This document shows positions 17,942-52,939 of a stretch of 64,000 nucleotides of DNA, one piece after another. Position 1 is the first letter of the stretch; each line of letters begins with the position of its first letter. Where the stretch lies: contig NZ_JAJNDA010000013.1 of assembly GCF_021026295.1 (NCBI RefSeq), forward strand, positions 62,001-126,000, read 5' to 3'. Source of the stretch: Actinomycetospora soli (GTDB taxonomy: Bacteria; Actinomycetota; Actinomycetes; Mycobacteriales; Pseudonocardiaceae). The position numbers and the translations under genes are program-made. The notes beneath the pieces are model-generated. The model had not been told where the DNA came from and made no database searches. It was given only the letters and a program-made list of their open reading frames with translations.

Positions 17942-18692
17942 TCTGGCCTCCGTCGACGCTGAAGACCGCACCGGTGGCGAACGCCGCGCCCGGCGAGCAC
18001 AGGAACAGGATCGGCTCGGCGATCTCCTCGGCGCGGCCGAACCGGCCCACGGGGATGACGCTGCGCAGCGCGGCGAGGATGCCGGGGTCGCCGCCCGTCA
18101 GCCGCTGCGGCATCTCGGTGTCCGTGCTGCCGGGGGCGATGACGTTGACCCGGATGCCGTCCGCCGCGTGCTCGAGGGCGGCGGACCGCGTCATGCCCAC
18201 CAGGGCGTGCTTGACCGAGACGTACGGCGCGGCTCCGGCCGCGCCGACGACGCCGGCGACGGAGGAGACGTTGCAGATCGCCCCGCCGTTCCCGGCCTCG
18301 ACCATCGCGGCGAGCTCGGCGCGCAGACAGTTCCACGTACCGCGGACGTTGATGTCGAGGACGCGGTCGAACTCCTCGGGCGGGTAGCCCAGCAGCGGGC
18401 TGAACACGCCGATGTAGCCGGCGCAGTTGACGGCGACGTCGAGCCGGCCGAACCGGGACACCGCCGTGCGGACCACCTCGTCGACCTCGGCGACCCGCGT
18501 GATGTCGGCGCCGACGAAGACCGCGGTGCCCCCGGCCTCGGTCAGCTCGTGCTCGAGCTTCGTGCCGCGCTCGTCGTCGAGGTCGGTGAGCACGACGGTG
18601 GCACCCTCGCGGACGAACGCCCGCGCGGTCGCCGATCCGATGCCCCCGGACGCCCCGGTGACGACGGCGATCTTGTCCTGCAGCAGTCCCAT
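17931..18692 (-). CDS. Short-chain dehydrogenase/reductase, catabolic operon
   Basis: 253 residues: cofactor motif VVTGASGGIGSATA, acidic VVLTDLDDERG that favours NAD over NADP, NCAGYIG, catalytic Ser in CNVSSVAG and Tyr/Lys in PYVSVKHALVGMT, and terminal ATGAVFSVDGGQSA. It lies 17 bp downstream of the LLM monooxygenase and overlaps the MBL gene, so a dehydrogenation step in the same pathway is likely. Substrate unknown. Confidence 0.85.
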   Translation of the reverse strand: MGLLQDKIAVVTGASGGIGSATARAFVREGATVVLTDLDDERGTKLEHELTEAGGTAVFVGADITRVAEVDEVVRTAVSRFGRLDVAVNCAGYIGVFSPLLGYPPEEFDRVLDINVRGTWNCLRAELAAMVEAGNGGAICNVSSVAGVVGAAGAAPYVSVKHALVGMTRSAALEHAADGIRVNVIAPGSTDTEMPQRLTGGDPGILAALRSVIPVGRFGRAEEIAEPILFLCSPGAAFATGAVFSVDGGQSAA

Positions 18693-38599: not shown

Positions 38600-40032
38600 T
38601 CCTGCCCCCGCGGGTCGTCATCGCGGCCCCGTCGTCGGGCAGCGGGAAGACGACGATCACGACGGGGCTGCTGGGTGCGCTGGCGGCCCGCGGCACGGTG
38701 CCGGCGCCGTTCAAGATCGGTCCCGACTACGTCGACCCCGGCTACCACGCGCTCGCCGCCGGCCGTCCCGGGCGCAACCTCGACCCGGTGCTCTGCGGCG
38801 TCGACCGGCTCGCGCCGCTCGTGGCGCACGGGGCGACGGGGGCGGCGCTCGCGGTCGTCGAGGGCGTGATGGGCCTGTTCGACGGTCGGCTCGCCCCGGG
38901 TGGCTGGTCCGGTGACAGCAAAGCGTCACTGCTTGCACCCAGTGACAGCAACGACGCTTTCCTGCCACCGGAGCGGAGCCGGCCCGACGACGGCTCCACC
39001 GCCCACGTCGCGCGCGTGCTCGAAGCCCCCGTGGTGCTCGTGGTCGACGCGCGCGGCCAGCACCGGTCGATCGCGGCGCTGCTGCACGGGTTCCGCACGT
39101 TCGACCCGGCCGTCGCGCCGGCCGGCGTCATCCTCAACCGGGTCGGCACCGAGCGGCACGCGGACGCGCTCCGGGCGGCGTGCGCGGAGGTCGGGGTGCC
39201 GGTGCTGGGCGTGGTGCCGCGGCGCGCCGAGCTCGCCGTGCCCTCGCGCCACCTCGGTTTGATCACCGCCGCCGAGCACGGCGCCGACGCCCGCGCGGCC
39301 GTCGACGCGATGACCGCGCTCGTCGCCGCCCACGTCGACCTCGACGCCGTCGAACGGCTCGCTCGCAGCGCGCCCGCCACGCCCGTCGAGGCGTGGGACC
39401 CGGTGCTCGAGGTCGGCCCGACCGACCGGCGTGCGCGCCGTGTCGTCGCGGTCGCGGGCGGTCCCGCGTTCACCTTCGGCTACCCCGAGCACGCCGAGCT
39501 CCTGCAGGCCGCCGGGGGAGAGGTCGTCGTCGTGGACCCCCTGCGCGACGAGGCGCTGCCCGAGCGCACGGCCGGCCTCGTCCTGCCCGGCGGGTTCCCC
39601 GAGGAGCACCTCGAGGACCTCTCGGCGAACGTCGCGCTGCGCTCCGCGGTCGAGGCCTTCGCGACGGCGGGTGGGGCGGTCCACGCGGAGTGCGGCGGTC
39701 TGCTGTACCTGGGCCGTTCGCTGGACGGGTCGCCGATGTGCGGGGTGCTCGACGCCGACGCCGCGATGGGCCCGCGCCTGACGCTCGGCTACCGGACGGC
39801 GACGGCCGTCGCGGACTCGCCGGTCGCGGCGGCGGGCGAGACCGTGACCGGGCACGAGTTCCACCGCACCGTCACCACCCCGCGGGCCGGGTCGACGCCC
39901 GCCTGGTCGTGGGACGACACCACCGAGGGCTTCGTGCAGGGCTCCGTCCACGCCTCCTACCTGCACACGCACCCCGCCGGCCGTCCGGAGGCGGTGCGGC
40001 GGTTCGTGGCCGGGTTGGTCGGGCCGCCGTGA
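38593..40032 (+). CDS. cobB: Cobyrinic acid a,c-diamide synthase carrying a repeat-encoded insertion
   Basis: 479 residues. ATP- and glutamine-dependent amidation of the a and c side chains. P-loop VVIAAPSSGSGKTTITTGLL, GPDYVDPGYHALAAGRPGRN, EGVMGLFDGR (90-99), then in the C-terminal glutaminase-like half LPGGFPEEHLEDLSANVALR and HAECGGLLYLG (Cys nucleophile) with TGHEFHRT. Between FDGR and STAHVARVLEAPVVLV, residues about 106-126 (SGDSKASLLAPSDSNDAFLP) are not part of the family and are encoded by a 63-bp family B repeat. The loop is on the surface of the N-terminal domain, so activity may survive. GTG start inside the cobO end. Confidence 0.92.
   Translation: MVVLPPRVVIAAPSSGSGKTTITTGLLGALAARGTVPAPFKIGPDYVDPGYHALAAGRPGRNLDPVLCGVDRLAPLVAHGATGAALAVVEGVMGLFDGRLAPGGWSGDSKASLLAPSDSNDAFLPPERSRPDDGSTAHVARVLEAPVVLVVDARGQHRSIAALLHGFRTFDPAVAPAGVILNRVGTERHADALRAACAEVGVPVLGVVPRRAELAVPSRHLGLITAAEHGADARAAVDAMTALVAAHVDLDAVERLARSAPATPVEAWDPVLEVGPTDRRARRVVAVAGGPAFTFGYPEHAELLQAAGGEVVVVDPLRDEALPERTAGLVLPGGFPEEHLEDLSANVALRSAVEAFATAGGAVHAECGGLLYLGRSLDGSPMCGVLDADAAMGPRLTLGYRTATAVADSPVAAAGETVTGHEFHRTVTTPRAGSTPAWSWDDTTEGFVQGSVHASYLHTHPAGRPEAVRRFVAGLVGPP
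38909..38971. repeat. Family B element, copy 2, inserted in cobB
   Basis: 63 bp, exactly 21 codons. Ends are 19-bp inverted repeats matching at 17 positions (CCGGTGACAGCAAAGCGTC and GACGCTTTCCTGCCACCGG). The centre has a second inverted repeat GTCACTG/CAGTGAC. The in-frame length and the location between conserved CobB segments show insertion into an existing gene. Confidence 0.75.
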
Positions 40033-40383: not shown

Positions 40384-41778
40384 TCAGCACGCGGTCTCCG
40401 GCGGCAACGTCCCGTCGACGAGGAACCGCGCGACCGCGGAGTCCACGCACGGGTTCCGCTGCGAGGCGAACAGGCCGTGCGAGCGCGCGTCGGGGTCGAG
40501 CACCATCGGCGAGCCGGGGAAGCGCCCCTGCATGCGGCGGGCGCCGGCGAGCGGGGTCGTCGGGTCGAGGCCGGCCTGCGTGAACAGCACGCGGGCGGAC
40601 GACCCGAACCGCACCGGTTCGCGGGGCGGTGACCACGAGGGGCACGGCAGGGTCTCGAGCCCGGTGAGCACCGGGGGCGGCCAGGCCGTGAGCAGGTCCG
40701 CGACGTCCGCCCCGACCCGGGACGCGGACGGCAGGGGCGAGTCCGCGCACACGGTCGCCCGGTTCGCGGCCTGCCGGGACCGCTCCGACCCGTCGTCGGG
40801 AACCCGGAGCGCGTCGAGCGGCGCGGGGTCGCCGGCCCGCAGGGCCGCCAGGGCGTCCGCGAACGGCGCCCAGCGCTCGGTGCGCGAGAGCGTCCGGTAC
40901 ACGACCGCGTCGAACTCGGCCGGGCCCAGCGCCCCCACGGGCAACGACCCCCGCGCCGCCGCGTAGGCCGTGACCACCGCGCCCGCGTCGACGCCCCACC
41001 GGCCGGCCGTGAACGAGAACCAGGCGTCGCGTGCCGCCAGCATCGCCCGTGCCTGCTCGTGGCCGAAGGCCGTCCAGTCCTCGGGCCCGACGGTGGAGTC
41101 CAGCACCATCCGACCGACGTGCGCCGGGAAGAGCGTCGCGTACGAGGCCCCCAGCCACGTGCCGTAGGAGACGCCGAGGAACGACAGGCGGGGCTCGCCC
41201 AGCGCGGACCGGAGCAGGTCCATGTCCCGCGCGGTCGCCGCGGTGCCCAGGTCGGCCCGCGCCGGACCGACCGCCGCCGCGCAGTCGGCCGCCAGCGCCG
41301 CACCCCGCGCCGTCAGTCCCGCCGGTCCGAGCGCGACCGGGTCGGGCGCCGGGTGGTCGAACAGTCCACCCGCGGGACCGCATCCGATGCCCGCGCTGCG
41401 CCCGGTACCGCGTGGGTCGAAGCCGACGACGTCGTACGCGGCGGTCACCGCGTCCGGCATCTTCGCCGCCTTCTCGACGCCGTAGTCCAGCCCCGCCGAG
41501 CCGGGCCCGCCCGGGTTCACCACCAGCGCGCCGCGTCGGACGCCGGTCGCGGGCAGGACGGACACGGCGACGTCGAGCGTCGGACCGTCGGGGGAGGCGT
41601 GGTCGTGGGGCACGCGCAGCACCCCGCACCGCGCCTGGTCACCGCGCGGACCGGCCTCGACGACGTCGGCGGGACACGGCCCCCAGGCGACGGACGGTGA
41701 CGACGGCGGAGTCTCGTTCGAGCATCCCGCGACGAGCAGTCCGCCGAGCACGAGCGCGAGACATCGTCCGACCTGCAT
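40384..41778 (-). CDS. Secreted alpha/beta hydrolase lipoprotein, tripeptidyl aminopeptidase-like
   Basis: 464 residues. Lipoprotein signal: MQVGRCLALVLGGLLVAGCS with lipobox VAGC at about residue 19. The hydrolase follows the actinobacterial TAP/SlpD pattern: VVNPGGPGSAGLDYG (oxyanion), VVGFDPRGTGRSAG, nucleophile FLGVSYGTWLGASYA, and a C-terminal TAP domain with LFTQAGLDPTTPLAGARR (Asp) and RSHGLFASQRNPCVDSAV (His). It probably trims peptides at the cell surface. It is divergent from the ten-gene operon and shares a promoter region with a Zur-like sequence. Confidence 0.85.
   Translation of the reverse strand: MQVGRCLALVLGGLLVAGCSNETPPSSPSVAWGPCPADVVEAGPRGDQARCGVLRVPHDHASPDGPTLDVAVSVLPATGVRRGALVVNPGGPGSAGLDYGVEKAAKMPDAVTAAYDVVGFDPRGTGRSAGIGCGPAGGLFDHPAPDPVALGPAGLTARGAALAADCAAAVGPARADLGTAATARDMDLLRSALGEPRLSFLGVSYGTWLGASYATLFPAHVGRMVLDSTVGPEDWTAFGHEQARAMLAARDAWFSFTAGRWGVDAGAVVTAYAAARGSLPVGALGPAEFDAVVYRTLSRTERWAPFADALAALRAGDPAPLDALRVPDDGSERSRQAANRATVCADSPLPSASRVGADVADLLTAWPPPVLTGLETLPCPSWSPPREPVRFGSSARVLFTQAGLDPTTPLAGARRMQGRFPGSPMVLDPDARSHGLFASQRNPCVDSAVARFLVDGTLPPETAC
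40787..40802. repeat. Family C short palindrome, copy 3
   Basis: GACCCGTCGTCGGGAA within the TAP-like lipoprotein gene, where the protein reads VPDDGSER; the site sits in the variable cap region rather than in a catalytic motif. Confidence 0.6.
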
Positions 41779-41813
41779 CTGTGAGCAGTACCCCCGACCC
41801 CTTGCCGAATTAT

Positions 41814-41828
41814 TGAACATGATTACCG
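41814..41828. promoter_or_regulatory. Zur-like sequence before the ATP-grasp operon
   Basis: TGAACATGATTACCG matches 11 of 15 positions of the Streptomyces Zur box as I recall it (TGAAAATGATTTTCA), with the left half nearly perfect. It lies in a strikingly AT-rich spot, 46 bp before the ATP-grasp start and 36 bp before the TAP-like start. The right half is weak, so zinc regulation is a hypothesis. Confidence 0.35.
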
Positions 41829-41873
41829 TTCCCTGACCATAGCGGACAGTGACGTCGGGGAACGGGAGCACAC

Positions 41874-43129
41874 GTGGGTCACCTGGTCGTGATCGAGAGC
41901 TGGGTCGGGGCGATGAGCCGGTTGCTGCCCCGGGCGATCCGGGAGGCGGGGCACCGCTTCACGTTCGTCACCCGGGACCTGCACCACTACCTGCGCAGCG
42001 CCCCGGCCGGGTCGACCCACCCGCTGCTCACCGCGGACCACGTCCTGACCCTCGACACGAACGACGCGCCGCGGCTCGTCGAGGAGCTCGCCGCCCTGGC
42101 GCCCCGGCTCGGGTTCGACGGCGTGCTCTCGTCCTGCGACTACTACCTGGAGACCGTCGCCCTCGTCGCCGATCGCCTCGGCCTGCCCGGCGCCCCTCCG
42201 GAGGCCATGCGCGCCGCGTGCCGCAAGGACGAGACCCGCCGCGTCCTGCGGGACCTCCCCGGACCCCGCTGGGCGATCGCCCGGGACCGGACGGATCTCC
42301 TCGACGCCGCGCGGGACGTCGGCTTCCCGCTCGTGGTCAAGCCCGTCGACCTCTGCGCGGGGATGTTCGTCCGCCGCGTCGACGACGAGGCCGCCCTGCT
42401 CGCCGCCGCCGACGCCGCCGCGGCCTTCCCCGTCAACGCCCGGGGCCAGCAGCGCGCCCCGCAGCTGCTGTGCGAGGAGCTGCTGGTCGGGCCCGAGGTC
42501 AGCGTCGAGACCGCCACCGCGGGCGGCGTCACGACGGTCGTCGGGGTCACCGACAAGGTCCTGACCGGGGCGCCGTGGTTCGTCGAGGTCGGCCACCAGT
42601 TCCCGGCCGCGCTCGACGCCGCCACCGCGCGGGCCGCGGCCGAGCTCGCCCGGGCGGCCGTCGACGGCCTCGGGCTCGACCACACGGTCGCCCACACCGA
42701 GGTCAAGCTGACCGCGGACGGCCCGAAGCTCGTCGAGGTCAACCCGCGCCCGGCCGGCAACCGCATCACCGAGCTGGTCCGCCGCGTCACCGGCGTCGAC
42801 CTCGCCCGGGCGCACGCCGAGGTGGCGCTGGGCCGCACGCCGGACCTCACCCCGGTCGCCACCGGCACCGCCAGCGCCGCGGTGCGCTTCCTCGTCCCGG
42901 AGCGGGAGGGCGAGCTGGTCGCGGTCGAGGGCACCGAGGGCCTCGCCGACCGGGAGGGGTCGTCGAGGCGGAGTTCCCGACGGCGGGTCGGCGGGCCGGC
43001 GACGGCCGCAGCAACAACCACTACCTCGGCCACGTCATGACCGTCGCCGCCGGTCCCGACGCCGCGGCGGACGCGACGGCGGTGCTCGACGAGGTCGTCC
43101 TGCGCTACGGCGCCCCGGTGTCGGTGTGA
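41874..43129 (+). CDS. ATP-grasp ligase with a single-base frameshift
   Basis: About 418 residues when restored. ATP-grasp ligases join a carboxylate to an amine via an acyl phosphate. Visible features: [20 protein letters not shown] (ATP lysine), [38 protein letters not shown] (metal-binding Glu/Asn) and GNRITELV. After EGLADREG the frame breaks near 42957: the continuation [20 protein letters not shown] and [10 protein letters not shown] to 43129 lies one base back, and adding one G to the run GGGG would mend it. The uncorrected frame stops at 43040. GTG start. It leads the ten-gene operon; resemblance is to carnosine-synthase/PurK-like dipeptide ligases. Confidence 0.75.
42974..42989. repeat. 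Family C short palindrome, copy 4
   Basis: TTCCCGACGGCGGGTC in the ATP-grasp gene, read as FPTAG, 15 bp downstream of the frameshift point. Confidence 0.6.
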
Positions 43130-43926
43130 GCGCCCCCGCCACGACCGCCCTCGCGCGCGTCACCGCCGCCGCGCCCGACCCCGGCGACGCCCGCGTCTCC
43201 ACGGCCTTCGTCACGCGCCAGGGCGTGCGGCACGACGGCCGCCGCGGCGGCTACCGCAACGAGGTGCTCTCGGTCCGCGTCGGCGCGGCCGTCGGCTCCT
43301 GCGCGGTGCCACCCGGCAGCCTCGCGGGCGCGGCGGGCGACGCCGTGCTCGACCGCGTCGTCGGCGGTCCCGTCGCCGACCTCCTCGGCGACCCCGACCC
43401 CGCCGTGCGCACCGCCGTGCTCGACGCCCACCTCGCCGACCGGCGCGCCCTCGGCGACGGCGACGGCGGGTGGCCCGTCGAGCTGCCGGCCGGGAGCTCG
43501 GTGACCAAGTCGACCGCGCGCGCCGCCGCGGTCGCCGACCTCGTCCCGCTGCGGACGGGCCGCGTCCTCGTCGTCGGCGTCGTGAACTCCCTGCTCGCGG
43601 CCCTGCGCGACCGCGGGCTCGACCCCGTCCCGTGCGACCGGCTCGGCGGCACCACCGAGTGGGGCGAGCCGATCCGCACCGGGTTCGGCGACGACTGGGA
43701 CGCCGCGCTCGTCACCGGCATGACCCTGCCCGACGGCGGGTTCGACGACCTGCTCGCGACGGCCGCGGGCCGCCCGCTGGCGGTGTTCGCCCAGACCGGC
43801 GCGGCCGTGTTCCGGGCGCTCGTCGCGGAGGGGGCCGTCTGCGCGCTCTCGGCCGAGCCCTACCCCTTCTTCTGGCTCGACGGCGGCCCGACCCGGCTGC
43901 ACGTCTACCGGGGGTGGACGACGTGA
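43126..43926 (+). CDS. DUF364-like (putative heavy-metal chelation, Rossmann-like) protein
   Basis: 266 residues resembling the DUF4213/DUF364 family: an N-terminal half around [20 protein letters not shown] and a C-terminal Rossmann-like half with [55 protein letters not shown] and [15 protein letters not shown]. Structure work on a Desulfitobacterium member led to the suggestion that the family handles metals or metal-binding substrates; function is unproven. GTGA overlap on both sides places it firmly in the operon. It could be an enzyme of the pathway rather than a metal carrier. Confidence 0.65.
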
Positions 43927-44972
43927 GCGCGCCCGCCCTGCTCGACCTGCTCACCCCGACCCCGGTGCTGCGCATCGGCACCCCGACGCGCGGCTGGTGG
44001 GCCAAGCTGGAGGGTCACGGCGCCGGCGGGATGAAGGTCCGCGCGGCGCTGTCCATGCTGCGCGGCGCGCGGGCCCGCGGGGACCTCGCGCCCGGCGGCA
44101 CCGTCGTGGAGTCCACGAGCGGCACGCTCGGGATCGGCCTGCTCTACGCCGCCCGCGCGCTCGGCCACGACGTCGTCCTCGTCGTCGACGCCGACCTCGA
44201 GCCGTCGATGCGCGCCCTGCTCACCGCGCACGGCGCGCGCCTCGAGGTCGTCGCCCGTCCCCATCCCGACGGCGGGTGGCAGCAGGCCCGGCTCGACCGC
44301 GTGCACCGGGTCCTGGCCGGCCTGCCCGACGCCTGGTGGCCCGACCAGTACGACAACCCCGACAACCCCGCCGGCTACGTCGCCCTCGCCGACGAGCTCG
44401 ACCACCAGCTGCCCGACCCGCCGGACGTGCTCGTCTGCAGCGTCGGCACCGGTGGGCACAGCGCCGGGATCGGGCGGCGTCTCCGGGAGCGGCACCCCGA
44501 CCTGCGGGTGATCGGCGTGGACACCGTCGGCTCGACGATCTTCGGCCAGCCCGCGCGGCCGCAGCTGATGCGCGGGCTCGGCAGCAGCATCCACCCGCGC
44601 AACGTCGACCACGACGTGTTCGACGAGGTGCACTGGGTCGGCCCGGCCGAGGCGGTCGACTCGTGCCGCCGGCTCGCCCGCACCACGTTCGTCACCGGCG
44701 GGTGGAGCACCGGCGCGGTGGCCCGCGTCGCCGACTGGGTCGCGCGCCGCGAGCCGGGCGCGGTCGTCGCGACCGTCTTCCCCGACGGACCGCACCGCTA
44801 CCTGCACACGATCTTCGACGACGCCTGGTGCGGCGAGCACCTCCCCGGTCCGCCCACGCGGCTGCCCGTCGAGATCCCGCACCCCGAGGCGGTCGAGGTC
44901 GTCGGCGGCTGGGCCCGCTGCCGCCACGTCGTCGTGCCCCGGGGCGCCCGGCAGCTCGAGGCCACCGCATGA
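43923..44972 (+). CDS. PLP-dependent cysteine synthase-family enzyme (SbnA-like)
   Basis: 349 residues of fold-type II PLP enzymes. [20 protein letters not shown] holds the Schiff-base Lys (normally G-S-x-K-D-R; here G-M-K-V-R), [20 protein letters not shown] binds substrate, [20 protein letters not shown] is the phosphate-binding glycine loop. In staphyloferrin B synthesis SbnA, of this family, builds 2,3-diaminopropionate precursors from O-phosphoserine. The variant Lys motif and the C-terminal [12 protein letters not shown] region suggest a non-standard substrate. Neighbouring genes give no sign of sulfur assimilation. Confidence 0.8.
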
Positions 44973-46081
44973 GGCTCACCCACGAGACCGTCACGCTGCG
45001 CCTCGCCGAGCCGTTCCGCATCTCGCGGTCGGTCACCACCGCGCGCGAGGCGGTCGTCGTCACCGTTCACGACGACGGGTCGCGCGGCTCCGGCGAGGTC
45101 GTCACCAGCGTCCGGCGGGCGCTCGACGCGTCGACGATCCGCGCTGCCGTGGACGCCCTGGACGGACGGTTCGGGTCGGTGGAGGACCTCGTCGCGGGCC
45201 TGCCGACGCTGCTCGCCGAGGGCGTCCCGACCGGGGTCGTCGACGCGCTCGACGCCGCGGCACTGGACCACACCGGCCGTCGGGACGGGCTCCCGGCGCA
45301 CGCGCTGCTGGACGCGCCGGCCTGGTCGGGCACGCCCACCGCCGCGACCATCGGGCTCGTCGACGCGGAGACGGCCCTCGCGCGCACGGACGCCCTGGTC
45401 GGCCGGGGCTTCGACCTGCTGAAGATCAAGGCGGGCGCGCCCGACCCGGGTGACGACCTCGCGCGGGTCGCCGCCGTGCGCGCCGCCGCACCGGGCGCGC
45501 GGCTGCTCGTCGACCCCAACGGCGGGTGGGCGCCCGCGCTCGCCGTCGAGCTGCTCGAGGGCCTGGCGGGGCTGCTGGTCGAGGCGGTCGAGCAGCCGAC
45601 CGCGCCCGGCCGTCCCGCCGACCTGGGCTGGGTCGCGGAGCGGGTGCCGATGCCGGTGATCGCGGACGAGGACGCCGCGACGGTCGCCGACCTGGACGTG
45701 CTGCCGCCCGGGCTCGCCGTCAACGTCAAGCTCGCCGAGTGCGGGGGCGCCCGGGCCGCCCGGGCCATGATCGCCCGCGCCCACGCCGAGGGCCGCGACG
45801 TGATGCTCGGCTGCCTGGCCGCGAGCTCGCTGGGCCTCGCGCCCGCGACCGCCCTCGCCGGACTGGCCCGCTGGGTCGACCTCGACGGCCACCTCCTGCT
45901 CGCCGACGACCCGTGGACCGGGCTCGGCGGCGAGGACGGTCGCCTGGTGCCGGGGGAGCCGGTCGGGCTGGGGGTGCGGCGGGCCGGGCAGGTCGGTGGT
46001 CGCCCGGGCGTCAGCGGTGGCACACGGCGCACGTCCAGCGTCAGCGGTGGGCCACGGCTGACACCGGGGGCCGACCGATGA
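44969..46081 (+). CDS. Enolase-superfamily dipeptide epimerase-like enzyme
   Basis: 370 residues. The barrel has the superfamily landmarks: [20 protein letters not shown] (K-x-K catalytic lysine), [14 protein letters not shown] (first metal Asp), [13 protein letters not shown] (Glu), [14 protein letters not shown] (third metal acid), and [13 protein letters not shown] (second catalytic Lys). Dipeptide epimerases invert the second residue of Ala-Glu-like dipeptides; the same fold also gives NSAR and o-succinylbenzoate synthases. The last ~23 residues ([20 protein letters not shown]) are encoded by a family A repeat and not part of the enzyme. ATGA overlap with the MFS gene. Confidence 0.8.
46008..46067. 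repeat. Family A element, copy 1
   Basis: 60 bp at the 3' end of the epimerase gene. Two copies of TCAGCGGTGG[GC][AC]CACGG joined by CGCACGTCCAGCG, ending CTGACACCGG. It matches the copy at 52119-52187 over its whole length with few changes and keeps the reading frame open, adding a peptide tail. Confidence 0.75.
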
Positions 46082-47295
46082 TCGCCACCCTCCGCTCGGT
46101 GCGCAGCTTCCCGCGCGCCGTGCAGGTCCTGCTGCTCAACCAGCTCGGGGTGAACACCGGCTTCTACCTGCTCGTGCCGTACCTGTCGGGCTACCTGGGC
46201 GGGGAGCTCGGGTTGTCGGCGGCCCTGGTCGGCGTGGTGCTCGGCGTCCGGAACCTGTCCCAGCAGGGGCTGTTCCTCGTGGGCGGGTCGGCCGCGGACC
46301 GACTGGGTGCACGCGGGGTCATCATCGCCGGCTGCGCGCTGCGGACGGTGGGGTTCGGGCTGTTCGCGCTCGGCGAGTCGGTGCCGATCCTGTTCGCGGC
46401 GGCGATCCTGTCCGGGCTCGCGGGCGCCCTGTTCAACCCCGCCGTGCGGGCCTACCTGTCGCAGGAGGCGGGGGAGCGCAAGGCCGAGGCGTTCGCGCTG
46501 TTCAACGTCTTCGCCAACACCGGCGCGCTGCTCGGGCCGCTGCTCGGCGGGGTGCTGCTGCTGGTCGGGTTCCGGCTCTCCGCGATCGTCGCCGCGGTCC
46601 TGTTCGCGCTGCTGACGATCTGGCAGCTCGCCGTGCTGCCGGTCCGCCGGATCGAGCCGAGCGGGACGACGGTCGGCGGCGACTGGCGGGAGGTCCTCAC
46701 CTGCCGGCCGTTCCTCGCCTTCACGCTCGCGATGGTCGGCATGTTCGCCCTGCAGAACCAGCTCTACCTGCTGCTGCCCCTGCAGGCCGCGGAGCTCACG
46801 GGGTCGGCGAGCCCGGTCGCCGTGATCTTCGCGGTGGTCACGCTGCTCAACCTCGGGCTGCAGGTGCGCCTGACCCGCCGGCTCGACGCGGCCCCGCGGG
46901 CGACGACGATCGCGGCGGGGCTCGCCGTCATGGGGCTGGCGTTCCTGCTGCCGGCCCTCCTCGCGCCGCTGGTCCCGCCGGGGCTCGTCGGGCTCGTCCC
47001 GGTCCTGCTCGCGGCCGCGGTGTTCTCGGTCGGGCTGATGATCGCCCAGCCGTTCGTCAACGCGCTGATCGGCTCGTTCACCCGGCCCGGCCTGTCCGGC
47101 ACCTGCTTCGGCGTCTTCTACCTGGCGTCGGGGATCACCGCGGCCGCGGCGAACGCGCTCATCGGCTGGGCCGTCGACGCGGCCGGTTCGCCCGTCGCGT
47201 GGCTGCCCGCCGTCGTCTGTGCGGCCTTCGGGTTCGGGTCCGCCCTCGCCGCGCGCCTGCTCGCCACGCGCCTGCCCCAGGAGGTCCCCACATGA
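46078..47295 (+). CDS. MFS transporter, likely exporter of the operon product
   Basis: 405 residues with 12 predicted helices. The loop between helices 2 and 3 reads GGSAADRLGARGVIIAGCAL, the MFS signature (G-x-x-x-D-R-x-G-x-R), and AGALFNPAVRAYLSQEAGER is the helix 4-5 region of drug-efflux (DHA1) members. Helix 11-12 lies at SGITAAAANALIGWAVDAAG. In staphylopine-type systems an MFS protein exports the metallophore; the position between biosynthetic genes and an importer fits that role. No binding determinants can be read. Confidence 0.82.
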   Translation: MIATLRSVRSFPRAVQVLLLNQLGVNTGFYLLVPYLSGYLGGELGLSAALVGVVLGVRNLSQQGLFLVGGSAADRLGARGVIIAGCALRTVGFGLFALGESVPILFAAAILSGLAGALFNPAVRAYLSQEAGERKAEAFALFNVFANTGALLGPLLGGVLLLVGFRLSAIVAAVLFALLTIWQLAVLPVRRIEPSGTTVGGDWREVLTCRPFLAFTLAMVGMFALQNQLYLLLPLQAAELTGSASPVAVIFAVVTLLNLGLQVRLTRRLDAAPRATTIAAGLAVMGLAFLLPALLAPLVPPGLVGLVPVLLAAAVFSVGLMIAQPFVNALIGSFTRPGLSGTCFGVFYLASGITAAAANALIGWAVDAAGSPVAWLPAVVCAAFGFGSALAARLLATRLPQEVPT

Positions 47296-48089
47296 GCACG
47301 CTGCTGCTCGACCGCCCCGAGCTCTACGAGGCGTGGTTCCCCGACCCGGACGCCACGGCGGCGCGCTTCGTCGCCGACGTGGCCGTGCGCTTCGGTGCCC
47401 CCGGGGAGCGCCTGCTCGACGCCGGGTGCGGCACCGGCCGCGACGCCGCCGCGCTCGCCGCGCGGGGCTGGACGGCGAGCGCCCTCGACCTCGCGCCGGC
47501 GATGGTCGAGCACGTCCGGCGGCACCACCGGGCGGTCGACGCGCACCAGGGTGACCTGCGCACGCTCGACCTCGGTCGGGCCTTCGACGTCGTCTCCTGC
47601 CTCGACTCGACGCTGCTCGCCCTGCACGACACCGCCGACCTGCTCGCCGCGCTGCGCCGGGTCGCCGCGCACCTCGTGCCCGGCGGGCTGTTCGTCGCCG
47701 AGATGCGCAACGGCGCCTTCCTGCTCACCGCCGCCGCGCACCGCGACCTGCTCGGCGGCGAGACCGAGCGGGTCCGCACCCACGACGGCGTCGCCTACAC
47801 CGCCCGCACGTTGCTCGCGGTCGACCACGCGGCCCAACTGCTCCGGCGTCGGAGGACCTGGACGTGGCCCGGCGGCGAGCACACCGAGCACACCGCGTGG
47901 CGCCTGCTGTTCCCCCGGGAGCTCACCGACCTGCTCGACCGCGCCGGGTTCGACGTGCTCGCCCTCTTCGACACCCCCGGCCCCCGCACCGACGAGCCCT
48001 GGCACCCCGACGCCGCGCTCGGCACCGCCCTGACCCGCGACCGGCTGCACGTCGTGGCCCGCCGTCGAGACCTGGAGGAGACCTCGTGA
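47292..48089 (+). CDS. Class I SAM-dependent methyltransferase
   Basis: 265 residues. YEAWFPDPDATAARFVADVA, motif I RLLDAGCGTGRDAAALAARG, LDLAPAMVEHVRRHHR, DVVSCLDSTLLALHDTADLL, LVPGGLFVAEMRNGAFLL. The C-terminal half has the WPGGEHTEHTAWRLLFPREL region of small-molecule O- or N-methyltransferases. Translationally coupled by 4-bp overlaps to the MFS and binding-protein genes, so it probably decorates the operon's product. Substrate unknown. Confidence 0.85.
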   Translation: MSTLLLDRPELYEAWFPDPDATAARFVADVAVRFGAPGERLLDAGCGTGRDAAALAARGWTASALDLAPAMVEHVRRHHRAVDAHQGDLRTLDLGRAFDVVSCLDSTLLALHDTADLLAALRRVAAHLVPGGLFVAEMRNGAFLLTAAAHRDLLGGETERVRTHDGVAYTARTLLAVDHAAQLLRRRRTWTWPGGEHTEHTAWRLLFPRELTDLLDRAGFDVLALFDTPGPRTDEPWHPDAALGTALTRDRLHVVARRRDLEETS

Positions 48090-49699
48090 CGAGCCGTCGA
48101 GGACACGAGCGTGGCGCGCCGCTGACGTCAGGTGTCAGCCGTGTGCCACCGCTGACACCGGCGGGCGGCACTACCCGCCGCCGCTTCCTGCAGGTCGGTG
48201 CCGTCCTCGCGGGCGGGGCGGCCCTCGCGGCCTGCAGCTCCGGCCCGGCCGCACCCGCCGTCGGGAACCCTCGCCCGGGCGGGACGCTGCGCGCCGCCTT
48301 CGCCGGCTCCGGCGCCACCGAGACCCTCGACCCGCACAAGCAGAACCTCTACGCCGAGCTCGCGCGGGCGAAGATGCTCTACGACAAGCTCGCGGAGTAC
48401 GGGTCGGACCTGTCGGTCGTGCCGCGGCTCGCCGAGCGGTTCGAGCCGAGCCCCGACCAGACGCGCTGGCGGGTGACGCTGCGCGCCGCCCGGTTCCACG
48501 ACGGACGCCCCGTCCGCGCCGCCGACGTCCTCGCGAGCTACGCCCGCATCCTCGGCCCGACGTCGGGCATGCGCGGCCGCTCCGGGCTCGCCACGCTCGA
48601 CCTGCCGAACTGCCGCGCGGTCGACGACCGCACCGTCGAGTTCGCGCTGACGGCCCCCTACGCGGAGTTCCCCAACGCCACCGCCGCGCTCGGCACCGCG
48701 ATCGTCCCCGAGGGGGCGACCGACTTCGACCGCGCACCCGTCGGCAGCGGCCCCTTCCGCTTCGAGTCCTTCGAACCGGGACGCCGGTTCCGGGTCGTGC
48801 GCAACCCCGACTACTGGGAGGGCGCGCCGCTGCTCGACGCCGTCGAGCTGCTCGTCTCCAACGACGAGGCCGCCCGCGTCAACGCGCTGCTCGGCCGCCA
48901 GGTCGAGTACGCCCACGACCTGTCGCCGACCACCGCCGCGGGCTACGCCGACCGCGTCGTCGTGACCCGGTTGCCCCGCAGCTCGATGCAGTCGCTCGCG
49001 ATGAAGGTCGACCGCCCGCCGTTCGACCGGCCCGAGGCGCGGCAGGCGATGTACGCGATGGTCGACCGCGAGGAGATGGTGCGGACGCTGCTGGCCGGGT
49101 CGGGCACCGTCGGGAACGACCTCTACGGCAAGGGCTACCGGTACTACGCCGACGACATCCCGCAGCGCACCTACGACCCCGACCGGGCCCGGGCCCTCGT
49201 CCGCGCCGCCGGGCTCGAGGGAGTGCGGATCCCCCTGGACACGGCCGCGGCCGGCTCCGGGATGGTCGAGGCCGCGTCGGTGCTGCGCGACCAGGCGGCA
49301 CGGGTCGGGCTCACCCTGGACGTCGTCACCGGCAACGCGTCGACCTACTACAGCGACGTCCGCGAGCGGGGCGTCCTCGCGGTCTACCGGTCGGGCGCGC
49401 TGCCGATCGAGTCGCACATCGCGCAGCGGCTGCTGTCGACCTCGGCCACCAACTTCACGCAGTGGCGCCGCCCCGGGTTCGACGCGCTCTACGCGCAGGC
49501 CCAGGCCACCGGCGACGACGCCGCCCGCACCGGCTTCTACCGGCAGATGCAGCAGCAGCTCCACGACGACGGCGGGTTCCTCGTCTGGGGGTTCTCCGAC
49601 TTCCTCGTCGGCTCCGACCCCCGCGTCGGCGGGATCGACCCGGGCGCCCCGGCGAACACCCTCGACTGGGCGCGGTTCGACAAGGTCTGGCTCACGTGA
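48086..49699 (+). CDS. ABC transporter substrate-binding lipoprotein (peptide/nickel type)
   Basis: 537 residues. The N terminus is odd: the first ~30 residues (with TSGVSRVPPLTPAGG) come from a family A repeat, and only then comes a Tat-type lipoprotein leader TTRRRFLQVGAVLAGGAALA ending in lipobox LAAC. The mature part is a DppA/NikA/OppA protein: FEPSPDQTRWRVTLRAARFH, GSGPFRFESFEPGRRFRVVR, VDRPPFDRPEARQAMYAMVD. Cntype metallophore importers and nickel importers use this family. No good start codon exists between repeat and leader, so the repeat is translated. Confidence 0.85.
   Translation: MTSRRGHERGAPLTSGVSRVPPLTPAGGTTRRRFLQVGAVLAGGAALAACSSGPAAPAVGNPRPGGTLRAAFAGSGATETLDPHKQNLYAELARAKMLYDKLAEYGSDLSVVPRLAERFEPSPDQTRWRVTLRAARFHDGRPVRAADVLASYARILGPTSGMRGRSGLATLDLPNCRAVDDRTVEFALTAPYAEFPNATAALGTAIVPEGATDFDRAPVGSGPFRFESFEPGRRFRVVRNPDYWEGAPLLDAVELLVSNDEAARVNALLGRQVEYAHDLSPTTAAGYADRVVVTRLPRSSMQSLAMKVDRPPFDRPEARQAMYAMVDREEMVRTLLAGSGTVGNDLYGKGYRYYADDIPQRTYDPDRARALVRAAGLEGVRIPLDTAAAGSGMVEAASVLRDQAARVGLTLDVVTGNASTYYSDVRERGVLAVYRSGALPIESHIAQRLLSTSATNFTQWRRPGFDALYAQAQATGDDAARTGFYRQMQQQLHDDGGFLVWGFSDFLVGSDPRVGGIDPGAPANTLDWARFDKVWLT
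48131..48159. repeat. Family A element, copy 2 (short)
   Basis: 29-bp hairpin: GGTGTCAGC and GCTGACACC, perfect 9-bp arms, with inner GTGTGCCACC. It corresponds to one unit, in reverse orientation, of the two-unit copies at 46008 and 52119. It lies just before the Tat leader of the binding protein. Confidence 0.7.
48252..48267. repeat. Family C short palindrome, copy 5
   Basis: CACCCGCCGTCGGGAA, one base off at the end, just after the lipobox of the binding protein, read as APAVGN in the flexible tether. Confidence 0.5.
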
Positions 49700-50670
49700 C
49701 GGCGGTCCTCGCCCGTTCCCGACGGCGGGTCCTGCCGCTCCCGGGTTCGCTCGGCGCGTACGCCGTGCGGCGGCTCGGCCTCGGTGTGGCGCAGATCCTG
49801 GTGGTCGCGGTCGTGGTGTTCCTGCTGACCGACCGGCTCTCCGGCGACGCCGCCGTCGTCATCGCGGGCGACGACCCGGACCCGGCGGTGATCGCGGCGC
49901 TGCGCACGGAGCTGGGGCTGGACCGGCCGGTGTGGGAACGCCTCGGCGCGTGGCTCGGCGGCGCCCTGACCGGGGACCTCGGGACCTCGCTGATCACCGG
50001 GCGGGCGGTGACCGCCGTGATCGCCGACGGGCTGCCGGTGACGCTGCTGCTGGCGGCCCTCACGCTCGTCGTCCTGGTCCCGCTGTCCCTGGCGCTCGGG
50101 ATGCTCGCCGCGCGCCGGGAGGGCGGGACGGCCGACCGCGTCGTCACCGCGACGACGATCGGGCTGTACTCGCTGCCGGAGTTCGCGCTCGGCGTCGTGC
50201 TCGTGACCGTGTTCGCCGTGCAGCTGGGCTGGCTGCCGCCGACCGGGATCGGGGTCGCGGAGCCCGCGGTGTTCGTGCTGCCGATCGTCGTGCTGCTCGC
50301 CCGGCCGGTGTGCTCGCTGTCCCGGCTCGTGCGGGCCGGCCTGGTCGACGCGCTCGCCGCCGACCACGTCGCCCACGCCCGCCGGCTCGGCTTCTCCCCG
50401 CGCGCGGTGCTCTGGCGCCACGCCCTGCCCGGCGCCGTGACCCCGGCGGTCCAGCAGCTCGCGCGGACCACCGACTGGCTGATCGGCGGTGTCGTCGTGG
50501 TCGAGGCCGTGTTCGTCCTGCCCGGGCTCGGCACCGCACTCGTCGACACCATCACCGCCCGCGACGTCCCGGTGGTCGCCGGGCTCGCGCTCGTGCTCGC
50601 GACCGGCACCGTCCTGCTCAACCTGGGCGCCGACCTGCTCGCGCGGGTGCTGACGCCGGTGGCGTCGTGA
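49696..50670 (+). CDS. ABC transporter permease (DppB/NikB type)
   Basis: 324 residues, six helices. The N-terminal helix (LGLGVAQILVVAVVVFLLTD) is followed by the long outer loop with LRTELGLDRPVWERLGAWLG, typical of DppB/NikB. The EAA loop that docks on the ATPase is DHVAHARRLGFSPRAVLWRH ending ALPG. Short R-rich N terminus SRRRVLPLPG is encoded partly by a family C palindrome. GTGA overlap with the binding-protein gene. Confidence 0.88.
   Translation: MTAVLARSRRRVLPLPGSLGAYAVRRLGLGVAQILVVAVVVFLLTDRLSGDAAVVIAGDDPDPAVIAALRTELGLDRPVWERLGAWLGGALTGDLGTSLITGRAVTAVIADGLPVTLLLAALTLVVLVPLSLALGMLAARREGGTADRVVTATTIGLYSLPEFALGVVLVTVFAVQLGWLPPTGIGVAEPAVFVLPIVVLLARPVCSLSRLVRAGLVDALAADHVAHARRLGFSPRAVLWRHALPGAVTPAVQQLARTTDWLIGGVVVVEAVFVLPGLGTALVDTITARDVPVVAGLALVLATGTVLLNLGADLLARVLTPVAS
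49716..49731. repeat. Family C short palindrome, copy 6
   Basis: TTCCCGACGGCGGGTC, 20 bp inside the first permease gene, read RSRRRV in its cytosolic N terminus. Confidence 0.6.
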
Positions 50671-51437
50671 GGGGCCGGCTGCTGCCCGGGCTCGTGCTGC
50701 TCGCGGTCCCGCTGCTGGTGACGGTCGTGGGTCCGCTCGTGGCGCCGGCGTTCTCCGGCCGCGGCGTGGCGTTCGGGAGCACCGGGGTGTTCGGCGGCGA
50801 CTTCGTCGGCCGCGACGTGCTGGGCCAGGTGCTGCGCGGGGGAGCGTCGGTGGTCGGGGTCGCGGTGCTCGCGACGCTCGTGACCTACGCGGTCGCCGTG
50901 CCCCTGGCGCTGCTCGCGGCGACCACGGCGCGCCGCGCGGTGGACGAGGCCGTGATGCGCCCGCTCGACGTCGTCGTCGCGATGCCCTCGATGCTGCTGG
51001 TGCTGCTGCTCGTCCCGATCGTCCCGGGATCCGCGCTGGTCGTGGCCGCGGTCGTGGCCCTGATCAACCTGCCCGACGTCGTCCGGATCGTGCGGGCGAC
51101 CGCGCTCGCGGTGGCCGCCGGGACGACGGTGGAGGCGCTGCGGATGCAGGGCGAGGGCCGCGTCCGGGTCGGCGCCTACGTGCTGCGCTCGGTGCGCCGG
51201 GTGGTGCTCACCGACGTCGGCACGCGGTTCACCGGCGCGCTGTACCTGGTGGCGTCGGCGGCCTTCCTCGGCGTGGGGCTGTCGGCGGACGACCCGAACT
51301 GGGCCGTGATGGTCGACGCCAACCGCGACGGGCTGTTCGTCAACCCGGCGGCGACCGTCGTGCCGGCGCTGCTGATCATCGCGCTGTCGGTCGGGGCGAA
51401 CCTGACCTCCGACCGGCTGCTGGGAGGCGCCCGGTGA
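50667..51437 (+). CDS. ABC transporter permease (DppC/NikC type)
   Basis: 256 residues, shorter than the usual 280-300, mainly by a reduced N terminus. FGSTGVFGGDFVGRDVLGQV is the periplasmic D-x-x-G-R-D-x-x loop typical of DppC, and the docking EAA loop is TTVEALRMQGEGRVRVGAYV. Six helices are recognisable, including LLLVPIVPGSALVVAAVVAL and TVVPALLIIALSVGANLTSD. Four-base overlaps on both sides. Confidence 0.85.
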   Translation: MRGRLLPGLVLLAVPLLVTVVGPLVAPAFSGRGVAFGSTGVFGGDFVGRDVLGQVLRGGASVVGVAVLATLVTYAVAVPLALLAATTARRAVDEAVMRPLDVVVAMPSMLLVLLLVPIVPGSALVVAAVVALINLPDVVRIVRATALAVAAGTTVEALRMQGEGRVRVGAYVLRSVRRVVLTDVGTRFTGALYLVASAAFLGVGLSADDPNWAVMVDANRDGLFVNPAATVVPALLIIALSVGANLTSDRLLGGAR

Positions 51438-52939
51438 TCTCCGTGGAAGGGCTCCGGATCACGGCCGGGGCGTCCGTCCTGGTGAACGACCTGTCGTTCG
51501 CCGTCCGGGCCGGTCGCGTGCTCGCGCTGGTGGGGGAGTCGGGCAGCGGCAAGACCTCGACGGCCCTGGCGCTGCTGGGCGAGGCCCGGGCGGGGACGTC
51601 CGTGTCGGGCGCGGTCGCGGTGGACGGGTCCGTCGGCTACGTCCCCCAGCACCCGGGCGCGGTGCTGCACCCGGTGCGGCGGGTCGGGTCGGTGCTGCGG
51701 GAGATCGCGCGACATCACGGCCGGCCGCGCGCGGCCGTGCACGAGGCGCTGCGCCGGGCCCAGGTGGCCGATCCCGACGAACTCCTCGGCCGGCACCGCC
51801 ACCAGCTCTCGGGCGGGCAGCAGCAGCGGGTCGTGCTCGCCCAGGCGCTGCTCGGCGGCGCGCAGGTGATCGTGGCCGACGAGCCGACCACCGGGCAGGA
51901 CACCCCGACCCGCCGTCGGGTGGCGGAGGAGCTGGCGGCGGTCGTCGCGGACGGCGTGACGCTCGTGCTCTGCAGCCACGACCTGGCGCTCGTGCGGGCC
52001 CTGGCCGACGACGTGGTGGTGCTGCGCGACGGCGTGGCGGTGGAGCAGGGCCCGGCCGCCGAGGTGCTGGGCGCGCCGCGGCACGCGTACACGCGGGCAC
52101 TCGTGGGGGCCGACGGCACCTCCGGTGTCAGCGGTGGCCCACGGTGCGCGCCCAGTGTCAGCGGTGGGCCACGGCTGACACCGGAGGCACCCCTGCTCGC
52201 GGCCACCGACGTCACCGCCGACCACCGGGCGCGCGGCCGGTCCCGGCGCGCGCTGCACGGGGTGTCGCTGGAGCTGGGACCCGGCGCCCGGGTCGCGCTG
52301 GTCGGCCGGTCGGGCAGCGGCAAGACGACCCTCGCGCGCGTGCTCGCCGGCCTGCACGCCCCGTCGTCGGGACGGGTGGAGCTGCGCGGCGAGCCGCTCG
52401 CGCCGCGCCTGACCCGGCGTCGTCGGGAGCAGGTCGCGGCCGTCCAGTACGTCTTCCAGGACGCGCGGGCCTCGTTCGACGAGCACCGTCCCGTCCTCGC
52501 CCAGGTCGCCCGGACCGCCCTGCTGCTGCGCGGCCACGACGACGCCGAGGCGCGGGCGCGCGCAATGCTGGCCCGGGTGGGGCTGGACGAGGCGGTCGTG
52601 ACGCGGCCGCCCCGGTCGCTCTCCGGCGGTGAACTGGCCCGCGCGGCCCTCGCGCGGGCCCTGCTCGCGGAACCGGACGTGCTCGTCTGCGACGAGGTGA
52701 CCGCCGGGCTGGACACGCTCACCCGCGCCGGGATCCTCGACCTGCTCGACGGGATCGGGGCGGCGCTGCTCGTGGTGACCCACGACCCGGCGGTGGTCAC
52801 CCGGCTCGCGGACGAGGTGGTCGTGCTCGACGACGGGCGGGTGGTCGAGCGGGGACCGGCGGCGCAGGTGCTCGCCGATCCCCGCGAGGACCTCACCCGC
52901 GCGCTGCTGGGCTCCCCGGTGCCGACCCCGACGCGGTGA
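51434..52939 (+). CDS. Fused ABC ATPase (DppD-DppF in one protein) with a repeat-encoded linker
   Basis: 501 residues with two nucleotide-binding domains. Domain 1 (1-225): Walker A GESGSGKTSTALALLG, signature LSGGQQQRVVLAQALL, Walker B VIVADEPTTGQDTP. Domain 2 (255-501): GRSGSGKTTLARVLAG, signature SLSGGELARAALARALL, VLVCDEVTAGLD. Residues about 229-250 ([20 protein letters not shown]) derive from a 69-bp family A repeat placed exactly between the domains. Most Dpp/Nik importers use two separate ATPases, so this fused form needs no partner and completes the importer. Confidence 0.88.
   Translation: MISVEGLRITAGASVLVNDLSFAVRAGRVLALVGESGSGKTSTALALLGEARAGTSVSGAVAVDGSVGYVPQHPGAVLHPVRRVGSVLREIARHHGRPRAAVHEALRRAQVADPDELLGRHRHQLSGGQQQRVVLAQALLGGAQVIVADEPTTGQDTPTRRRVAEELAAVVADGVTLVLCSHDLALVRALADDVVVLRDGVAVEQGPAAEVLGAPRHAYTRALVGADGTSGVSGGPRCAPSVSGGPRLTPEAPLLAATDVTADHRARGRSRRALHGVSLELGPGARVALVGRSGSGKTTLARVLAGLHAPSSGRVELRGEPLAPRLTRRRREQVAAVQYVFQDARASFDEHRPVLAQVARTALLLRGHDDAEARARAMLARVGLDEAVVTRPPRSLSGGELARAALARALLAEPDVLVCDEVTAGLDTLTRAGILDLLDGIGAALLVVTHDPAVVTRLADEVVVLDDGRVVERGPAAQVLADPREDLTRALLGSPVPTPTR
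52119..52187. repeat. Family A element, copy 3
   Basis: 69 bp, 23 codons, with perfect 14-bp terminal inverted repeats CCTCCGGTGTCAGC and GCTGACACCGGAGG. Inside are two TCAGCGGTGG units joined by GCGCGCCCAGTG. The best preserved copy of the family. Confidence 0.8.

Follow-up and report, generated by a model that had tools for sequence, protein, structure and literature searches.

A conserved ten-gene actinobacterial operon as a candidate Zur-controlled zinc-metallophore system, with sister loci that carry cobalamin riboswitches

We analyzed a 64,000-nt stretch of the Actinomycetospora soli genome (contig NZ_JAJNDA010000013.1, positions 62,001 to 126,000 of the forward strand; hereafter the window), in which ten same-strand genes at 41874-52939 are joined by nine 4-nt overlaps. 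In order, they encode an ATP-grasp ligase, a DUF364 protein, an SbnA-like pyridoxal phosphate (PLP) enzyme, a dipeptide-epimerase-like enolase, a major facilitator superfamily (MFS) transporter, a methyltransferase, a Nik/Opp-type binding protein, two permeases, and a double ATPase, the last four making up an ATP-binding cassette (ABC) importer (Table 1). An earlier note, made from the sequence alone, had described this overlapping operon and proposed that it makes, exports, and reimports a metallophore-like small molecule. The overlaps and the ten families hold up, while the gene list needs two corrections: the ATP-grasp frame is broken near 42950, and a hydrolase gene across the promoter had been left out. 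We consider the operon likely to be a Zur-repressed zinc-metallophore system, with a sister core that probably serves cobalt.

Table 1. Features of the operon and its promoter region, in window positions
Feature	Position	Strand	Basis and remarks
Alpha/beta hydrolase, TAP-like C-terminus	40384..41871	-	Pfam PF00561, PF08386; start codon uncertain
Zur-type box TTGAACATGATTACCGT	41813..41829		Matrix score 30.1; one of 15 training sites
ATP-grasp ligase	41874..43129 (open frame 41874-43040)	+	PF13535, PF18130; frame broken ~42940-42980
DUF364 protein, enolase-N-like and Rossmann-like domains	43126..43926	+	Family PF04016; structure model matches 3l5o, 3npg
SbnA/cysteine-synthase-like PLP enzyme, TSGT subfamily	43923..44972	+	PF00291; TIGR03945 244.7 bits; SbnA 5d87 best PDB match
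Dipeptide-epimerase-like enolase-superfamily enzyme	44969..46081	+	PF13378; DgcA model 197.9 bits (cut-off 400); PDB 4gfi
MFS transporter, presumed exporter	46078..47295	+	PF07690
S-adenosylmethionine-dependent methyltransferase	47292..48089	+	PF13489, PF13649
SBP_bac_5 binding protein	48086..49699	+	PF00496; NikA-type model best in NCBIfam; AgaA best in PDB
Nik/Opp-type permease 1	49696..50670	+	PF00528, PF19300; Opp2B 222 bits
Nik/Opp-type permease 2	50667..51437	+	PF00528; Opp2C
Fused double ABC ATPase	51434..52939	+	PF00005 in 2 stretches; NikD/CntF/CntD models best

On its own, the window DUF364 protein yields no DUF364 match in Pfam and no sequence match in PDB. The idea that the assignment is a misreading was overturned by its relatives, as 40 of the 41 family members match PF04016, and by its modelled fold, which it has in common with the DUF364 proteins 3l5o and 3npg; profile and fold thus agree on membership. 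Gene context had earlier tied DUF364 to the chelation of heavy metals and to a step of condensation or hydrolysis, with flavin, pterin, or other siderophore-like products as guesses, and the excerpts of that paper describe no operon of such make-up (PMC2954201; statements cited here and below are drawn from excerpts of the papers). The PLP enzyme scores below the SbnA equivalog cut-off (TIGR03945, 244.7 versus 349.95 bits) and carries TSGT where SbnA carries TSGN.

We take KxK, three acidic metal ligands, an opposite lysine, and a DxD motif to mark a dipeptide-epimerase-type enolase; the DxD motif of dipeptide epimerases holds the dipeptide. The window enolase shows all of these features, yet its NCBIfam scores are all under cut-off. 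Its catalytic residues and DLDG are retained in at least 95% of 112 rows from loci of the same type (T1, below) plus the window. The ATP-grasp protein weakly matches the model for the bacilysin ligase BacD (43.6 bits) and, in a fused ATP-grasp/argininosuccinate-lyase model, covers only the ATP-grasp portion. A multidrug pump is the nearest model to the MFS protein, and the importer is closest to Nik/Cnt-type models. By eye, the binding protein has a twin-arginine/lipobox-like N-terminus, its true start perhaps lying downstream, and its solved relatives include opine binders and peptide binders.

DUF364-like proteins are found in 156 of 390 genomes of the window's family, several of which coincide with named Pseudonocardiaceae records. 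The 40 loci first fetched comprise 16 T1, 9 T2, and 15 T3 loci. T1 loci begin with the ATP-grasp gene, L042 retaining only the first four genes; T2 loci have DUF364, PLP enzyme, and MFS genes without those for ATP-grasp, enolase, and methyltransferase, and carry ABC genes in five of nine cases; T3 loci pair a distant DUF364 with a distant PLP enzyme. A scan of species genomes returned 461 stretches, 434 of which encode a relative, and we kept the best 80, which are the closest loci and no full survey. By type these are 75 T1 and 5 T2. Sixty of the best 80, from several taxonomic orders, carry the full colinear set of ten, so the conserved co-occurrence in actinobacteria that the earlier note had suggested looking for is borne out; the other 20 miss some genes, in part through contig ends. 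The T1 loci belong to Streptomycetaceae (51), Pseudonocardiaceae (12), Micromonosporaceae (6), Nocardiaceae (2), Streptosporangiaceae (2), and Frankiaceae (1), with one unplaced. A sample of 396 genomes from the phylum, in which T2 was sought outside the window's family, gave ten matches including the window genome: three strong ones, which are T1, two that are T3-like by identity, and four weak ones.

In the DUF364 tree, a single branch separates each of T1, T2, and T3 from the rest (support 77, 93, and 100, respectively). The PLP enzyme tree supports T2 and T3 (98 and 100), while T1 requires two changes; a smaller PLP tree that includes plasmid copies has low support (T1 30, T2 27). Six genomes hold one T1 and one T2 locus each (G346, G349, G366, G367, G370, and G373).

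Upstream of the ATP-grasp gene, T1 loci have in common a Fur-family-type palindrome, which in the window lies about 45 bp ahead of the operon. Fifteen sites, among them that of the window, went into a weight matrix, and we counted a score of at least 18 as a box. The window site scores 30.1, and the next best in the 64 kb scores 12.1. A box is present in 65 of 74 named T1 promoters (the 75th T1 locus has too little upstream sequence) compared to 1 of 1418 random 360-base stretches of the same loci, and in 53 of 62 once the 12 promoters of the training family are removed. The random stretches are mostly coding, and T2 promoters make the better control. Forty additional loci from the window's family, none used in training, include 26 T1 promoters, each with a site of 23.9 or better between -52 and -61 (three of these places are also among the 74), and 14 T2 promoters, none of which exceeds 2.6; no Zur-type box was seen before DUF364 in T2 loci.

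The T1 motif agrees with the Zur box of Streptomyces coelicolor, tGaNNatSatNNtCa (PMC5472717), from which the window site departs at two weakly conserved positions. Allowing two mismatches, a pattern scan of the window's own genome gave seven hits at six places, one being hit on both strands, compared to one hit for the reversed pattern. One hit lies between genes for a CobW-type GTPase and L31 and a set resembling L33, S18, L28, and S14 (named by eye), gene kinds that are listed in the S. coelicolor Zur regulon (PMC6103462); Zur there regulates kinds of the znuA/ribosomal-protein type (PMC6103462, PMC5472717). Close to the beginning of znuA in the window genome, where the start codon is unsettled, the matrix gives a weaker site (17.9). 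The remaining hits, besides those in the window and on contig 33, look like chance, beside or inside unrelated genes. A Fur-family gene next to an ArsR-type gene is a candidate Zur in the window genome, a pairing known from mycobacteria. Nickel- or iron-responsive control, our first idea, was dropped given the Zur-type box in T1 promoters; no DtxR/IdeR or NikR model was run. As a side observation, contig 33 of the same genome has a strong palindrome of this type (25.3; L078, 5178) before an AMP-ligase-like gene, beyond a small membrane-protein gene, which may mark a further zinc-regulated gene.

Of 24 distinct T2 loci, 23 have a cobalamin riboswitch (Rfam RF00174, 85-103 bits) ahead of DUF364; some of the 24 are closely related and do not count as 24 independent cases. 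By batch, the tally is 6/7, 4/4, and 14/14, with one place examined twice (as L147 and L173). Loci with the riboswitch are L171, L173, L182, L183, L186, L189, L193, L195, L198, L203-L206, and L210 in a first set and L039, L043, L046, L065, L066, L104, L132, L134, L147, and L164 in a second; the sole T2 locus without a match, L050, is a long-branched row. Rfam finds no cobalamin riboswitch in 26 T1 loci from the window's family and nothing at all in the window. One of three other T1 loci (L068) has a riboswitch about 2.8 kb upstream on the opposite strand, and the two T3 loci examined have none.

The 15 T3 loci (L051-L064 and L070) mostly hold siderophore-type FecCD/ATPase/Peripla_BP_2 transport genes plus an MFS gene, with a GHMP kinase gene in six. 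A Zur-type site scoring at least 18 is found somewhere in 12 of the 15 T3 stretches and in one of nine T2 stretches, where it is far from the locus. A methyltransferase gene is also present in some T3 loci. T3 as a group perhaps encodes another zinc metallophore.

Plasmids carry parts or all of the system. Five of 69 matching plasmid records were examined. The gene set is present on a Streptomyces angustmyceticus plasmid, where the public annotation is generic (ATP-grasp, DUF364, cysteine synthase, dipeptide epimerase), and on a Rhodococcus plasmid (L225). The latter has a second Zur-type site (position 17990, score 22.5) at the operon end, before genes for a hypothetical protein with no Pfam match and a DUF1490 protein. 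Plasmids of Pseudonocardia autotrophica, Mycolicibacterium gilvum, and Streptomyces longwoodensis (L222, L223, and L224) have PLP enzyme and MFS genes only. Their PLP enzymes all have the same TSGT motif as T1 and T2, and copper- or other metal-related genes lie near the pair in L223 and L224. We wonder whether such pairs form a minimal make-and-export unit.

The Zur-type boxes on T1 and the cobalamin riboswitches on sister operons support the link to metals that the earlier note had proposed. From gene content, order, and conservation, together with these control elements, we infer enzyme steps, product, metal, and direction of transport as follows. When zinc runs short, Zur would release the box (41813-41829), allowing co-transcription of the ten genes. 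The SbnA-like enzyme would condense activated serine with another amino acid at the latter's amino group, and the DUF364 enzyme would finish or modify the aminopolycarboxylate core so formed. The ATP-grasp enzyme would then add an amino acid by amide linkage, the resulting dipeptide-like unit would be epimerized by the enolase-family enzyme, and the methyltransferase would cap the ligand. Finally, the MFS protein would send the ligand out, and the Nik/Opp-type importer would retrieve its zinc complex. The retained catalytic residues and DxD motif of the enolase fit an amide made by the ATP-grasp enzyme.

For the condensation step, SbnA and SbnB jointly serve 2,3-diaminopropionate (L-Dap) synthesis for staphyloferrin B (PMC3179956). 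No SbnB-type partner is found among the ten proteins (Pfam, NCBIfam), and TSGT replaces TSGN; most simply, the product of the condensation would itself be kept as an aminopolycarboxylate. The Dap-type unit that the earlier note had suggested is plausible given the SbnA-like enzyme, and its single methyl group is a guess from the one methyltransferase gene.

DUF364, PLP enzyme, and MFS protein would then form a reusable core, which the T2 clade carries under a cobalamin riboswitch, probably for cobalt. We lean slightly toward a broader version, in which DUF364 and the SbnA-like enzyme are a modular metallophore core and the switch names the metal, Zur and zinc on T1 and near most T3, the cobalamin riboswitch and cobalt on T2; T2 would then be a dedicated biosynthesized "cobaltophore" system, perhaps the first. 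To our knowledge, aspergillomarasmine A, a fungal aminopolycarboxylate, involves no DUF364, ATP-grasp, epimerase, or reuptake. It resembles the proposed chemistry in coming from a single synthase and being limited to Zn, Co, and Ni, unblocked by Fe, Mn, Mg, or Ca (PMC8319579). By analogy, this precedent fits a ligand family used under both zinc and B12 control.

The operon can be set against several known systems. The staphylopine, pseudopaline, and bacillopaline (cnt) loci are defined by a nicotianamine-synthase-like CntL side by side with an opine dehydrogenase, CntM (PMC7438024). Their make-export-reimport logic, Nik/Opp-type importer, CntD/CntF-like ATPases, and link to zinc are common to our operon, which likewise has MFS exporter and Nik/Opp importer genes nearby. 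However, none of its ten genes matches a CntL- or CntM-type Pfam or NCBIfam family at E 0.001, and ATP-grasp, SbnA-like, DUF364, and epimerase enzymes stand in their place. Ethylenediamine disuccinate (EDDS) is reportedly begun by an SbnA-like enzyme, with exporter and importer types that are said to differ from those here. We take its gene set to be a cysteine-synthase-like enzyme, an ornithine-cyclodeaminase-like partner, and a lyase; in Pfam, the ten proteins include a PALP domain and no ornithine-cyclodeaminase or lyase domain. The EDDS (aes) locus of Amycolatopsis japonicum is likewise actinobacterial and Zur-controlled (PMC6103462), and our operon has a Zur-type motif in its promoter.

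Staphyloferrin B (sbn) also uses an SbnA-family enzyme; our operon lacks SbnB and a non-ribosomal peptide synthetase (NRPS)-independent siderophore (NIS) synthetase among its ten proteins, and its box suggests zinc-type rather than iron-type control. Coelibactin is another Zur-controlled Streptomyces metallophore cluster (PMC6103462), made by a non-ribosomal peptide pathway (PMC3430247). As the earlier note had remarked of opine dehydrogenases and NRPSs, hallmark enzymes of metallophore pathways described so far are missing from the ten proteins (Pfam, NCBIfam). Our preferred reading is a class of zinc metallophores made with neither NRPS, NIS synthetase, nor opine dehydrogenase. Among the matches listed in open-licence PMC literature, a scope that leaves aside subscription papers and outside preprints, the gene set is undescribed; no paper in that literature brings together any two of cobaltophore, cobalophore, cobalamin riboswitch, and metallophore as terms.

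If correct, this would be a metallophore route with a small gene set that cluster finders built on NRPS, NIS, and opine enzymes are expected to miss, and the unexplained DUF364 family would gain a testable role. The riboswitch-controlled T2 loci make bacterial production of a cobalt ligand, a rarely asked question, directly testable. Zinc-stripping aminopolycarboxylates are also relevant as metallo-beta-lactamase inhibitors (PMC8319579).

Other products and metals have to be weighed. It is possible, if doubtful, that the operon serves nickel or a broad set of divalent metals and merely borrows Zur as its switch, given an importer nearest to Nik/Cnt-type models and the binding of Zn, Co, and Ni by aspergillomarasmine A (PMC8319579); the box, however, matches a zinc-sensor motif that the window genome also has at a ribosomal-protein set and, more weakly, at znuA. 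The SbnA-like and ATP-grasp enzymes might instead make a Dap-containing dipeptide antibiotic in the style of dapdiamide or bacilysin, exported by the MFS protein, with zinc only timing production. SbnA homologues do occur in the dapdiamide, viomycin, and zwittermicin clusters (PMC3179956), and both the weak BacD match and the multidrug pump nearest the MFS protein point that way. We regard this as improbable in view of the conserved ABC importer in the same operon, the Zur-type boxes on most tested T1 operons, the B12 riboswitch on sister loci, and the lack of an SbnB-type gene among the ten.

Least probable, in our view, is a zinc-dependent nutrient route, in which peptides or compounds resembling opines enter through the importer and are processed by the enzymes to support growth. 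Peptide catabolism is a possible setting for dipeptide epimerases, opine and peptide binders are among the solved relatives of the binding protein, and about a third of loci have a divergent TAP-like hydrolase. Against this, ATP-grasp and SbnA-like enzymes are biosynthetic types, Pfam finds no catabolic aminotransferase or dehydrogenase among the ten, and some T2 and plasmid loci keep PLP enzyme and MFS genes without an importer.

Several observations weigh against the zinc-metallophore reading itself. Among the 18 genomes listed for the window's genus, just 2 have the DUF364 gene. Outside the training family, nine of 62 T1 promoters fall short of 18, with scores from 11.1 to 17.8 and a Nocardia at the bottom, four of nine T2 loci lack the ABC importer, and the three plasmid loci with PLP enzyme and MFS genes have no Zur-type site above 16 and no riboswitch. 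AgaA, rather than CntA, is the best solved relative of the binding protein. The sub-cut-off SbnA score and the TSGT motif mean that the substrates of the PLP enzyme may differ; the MFS protein could be an importer, and a different substrate could be taken up by the ABC system. The DUF364 reaction is a predicted step, as are the product, its metal binding, and expression of the operon, all read from sequence.

Moreover, the window strain might not make the full product, as its ATP-grasp gene is broken in the assembly. The open frame stops at 43040, and the conserved C-terminus runs on in another frame to 43129; in the closest relative, of the same genus, the frame is open in this region. A common frame break was ruled out: the window has the sole short copy among 121 T1 rows (111 distinct places) in a test of where the best-matching frame stops, which an early break could escape. 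The break may be an assembly error in a draft genome or a recent mutation.

Across the operon promoter, the divergent hydrolase has, by eye, a lipoprotein-like N-terminus. Of the 89 T1 rows that have 2.5 kb or more of upstream sequence, 29 show a TAP-like hydrolase gene next to the operon and divergent from it (28 of 83 when each distinct place is counted once), and it is therefore an optional eleventh member of the T1 operon. The neighboring cobalamin genes (CobB and the CbiG C-terminal part) were rejected as members, as among 122 loci searched only the sister L031 has them, and we treat them as chance neighbors. The CobB-like gene (38608-40032) has a match in L031 that is 27 codons shorter, consistent with an extra stretch near the middle of the window protein seen by eye.

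The window also contains short repeats. A palindromic repeat (GTGTCAGC-GTGG...) occurs at 46007-46071, 48101-48165, and 52124-52188, placed at operon gene junctions and also in frame within the linker between the two ATPase halves. A second, with a TTCCCGACGGCGGGT core, occurs at 42974, 48253, 49716, 53522, and 57255, and one copy coincides with the site of the ATP-grasp frame break. Finally, an 18-nt tandem repeat in four overlapping registers lies at 56101-56196 within a long low-complexity reading frame.

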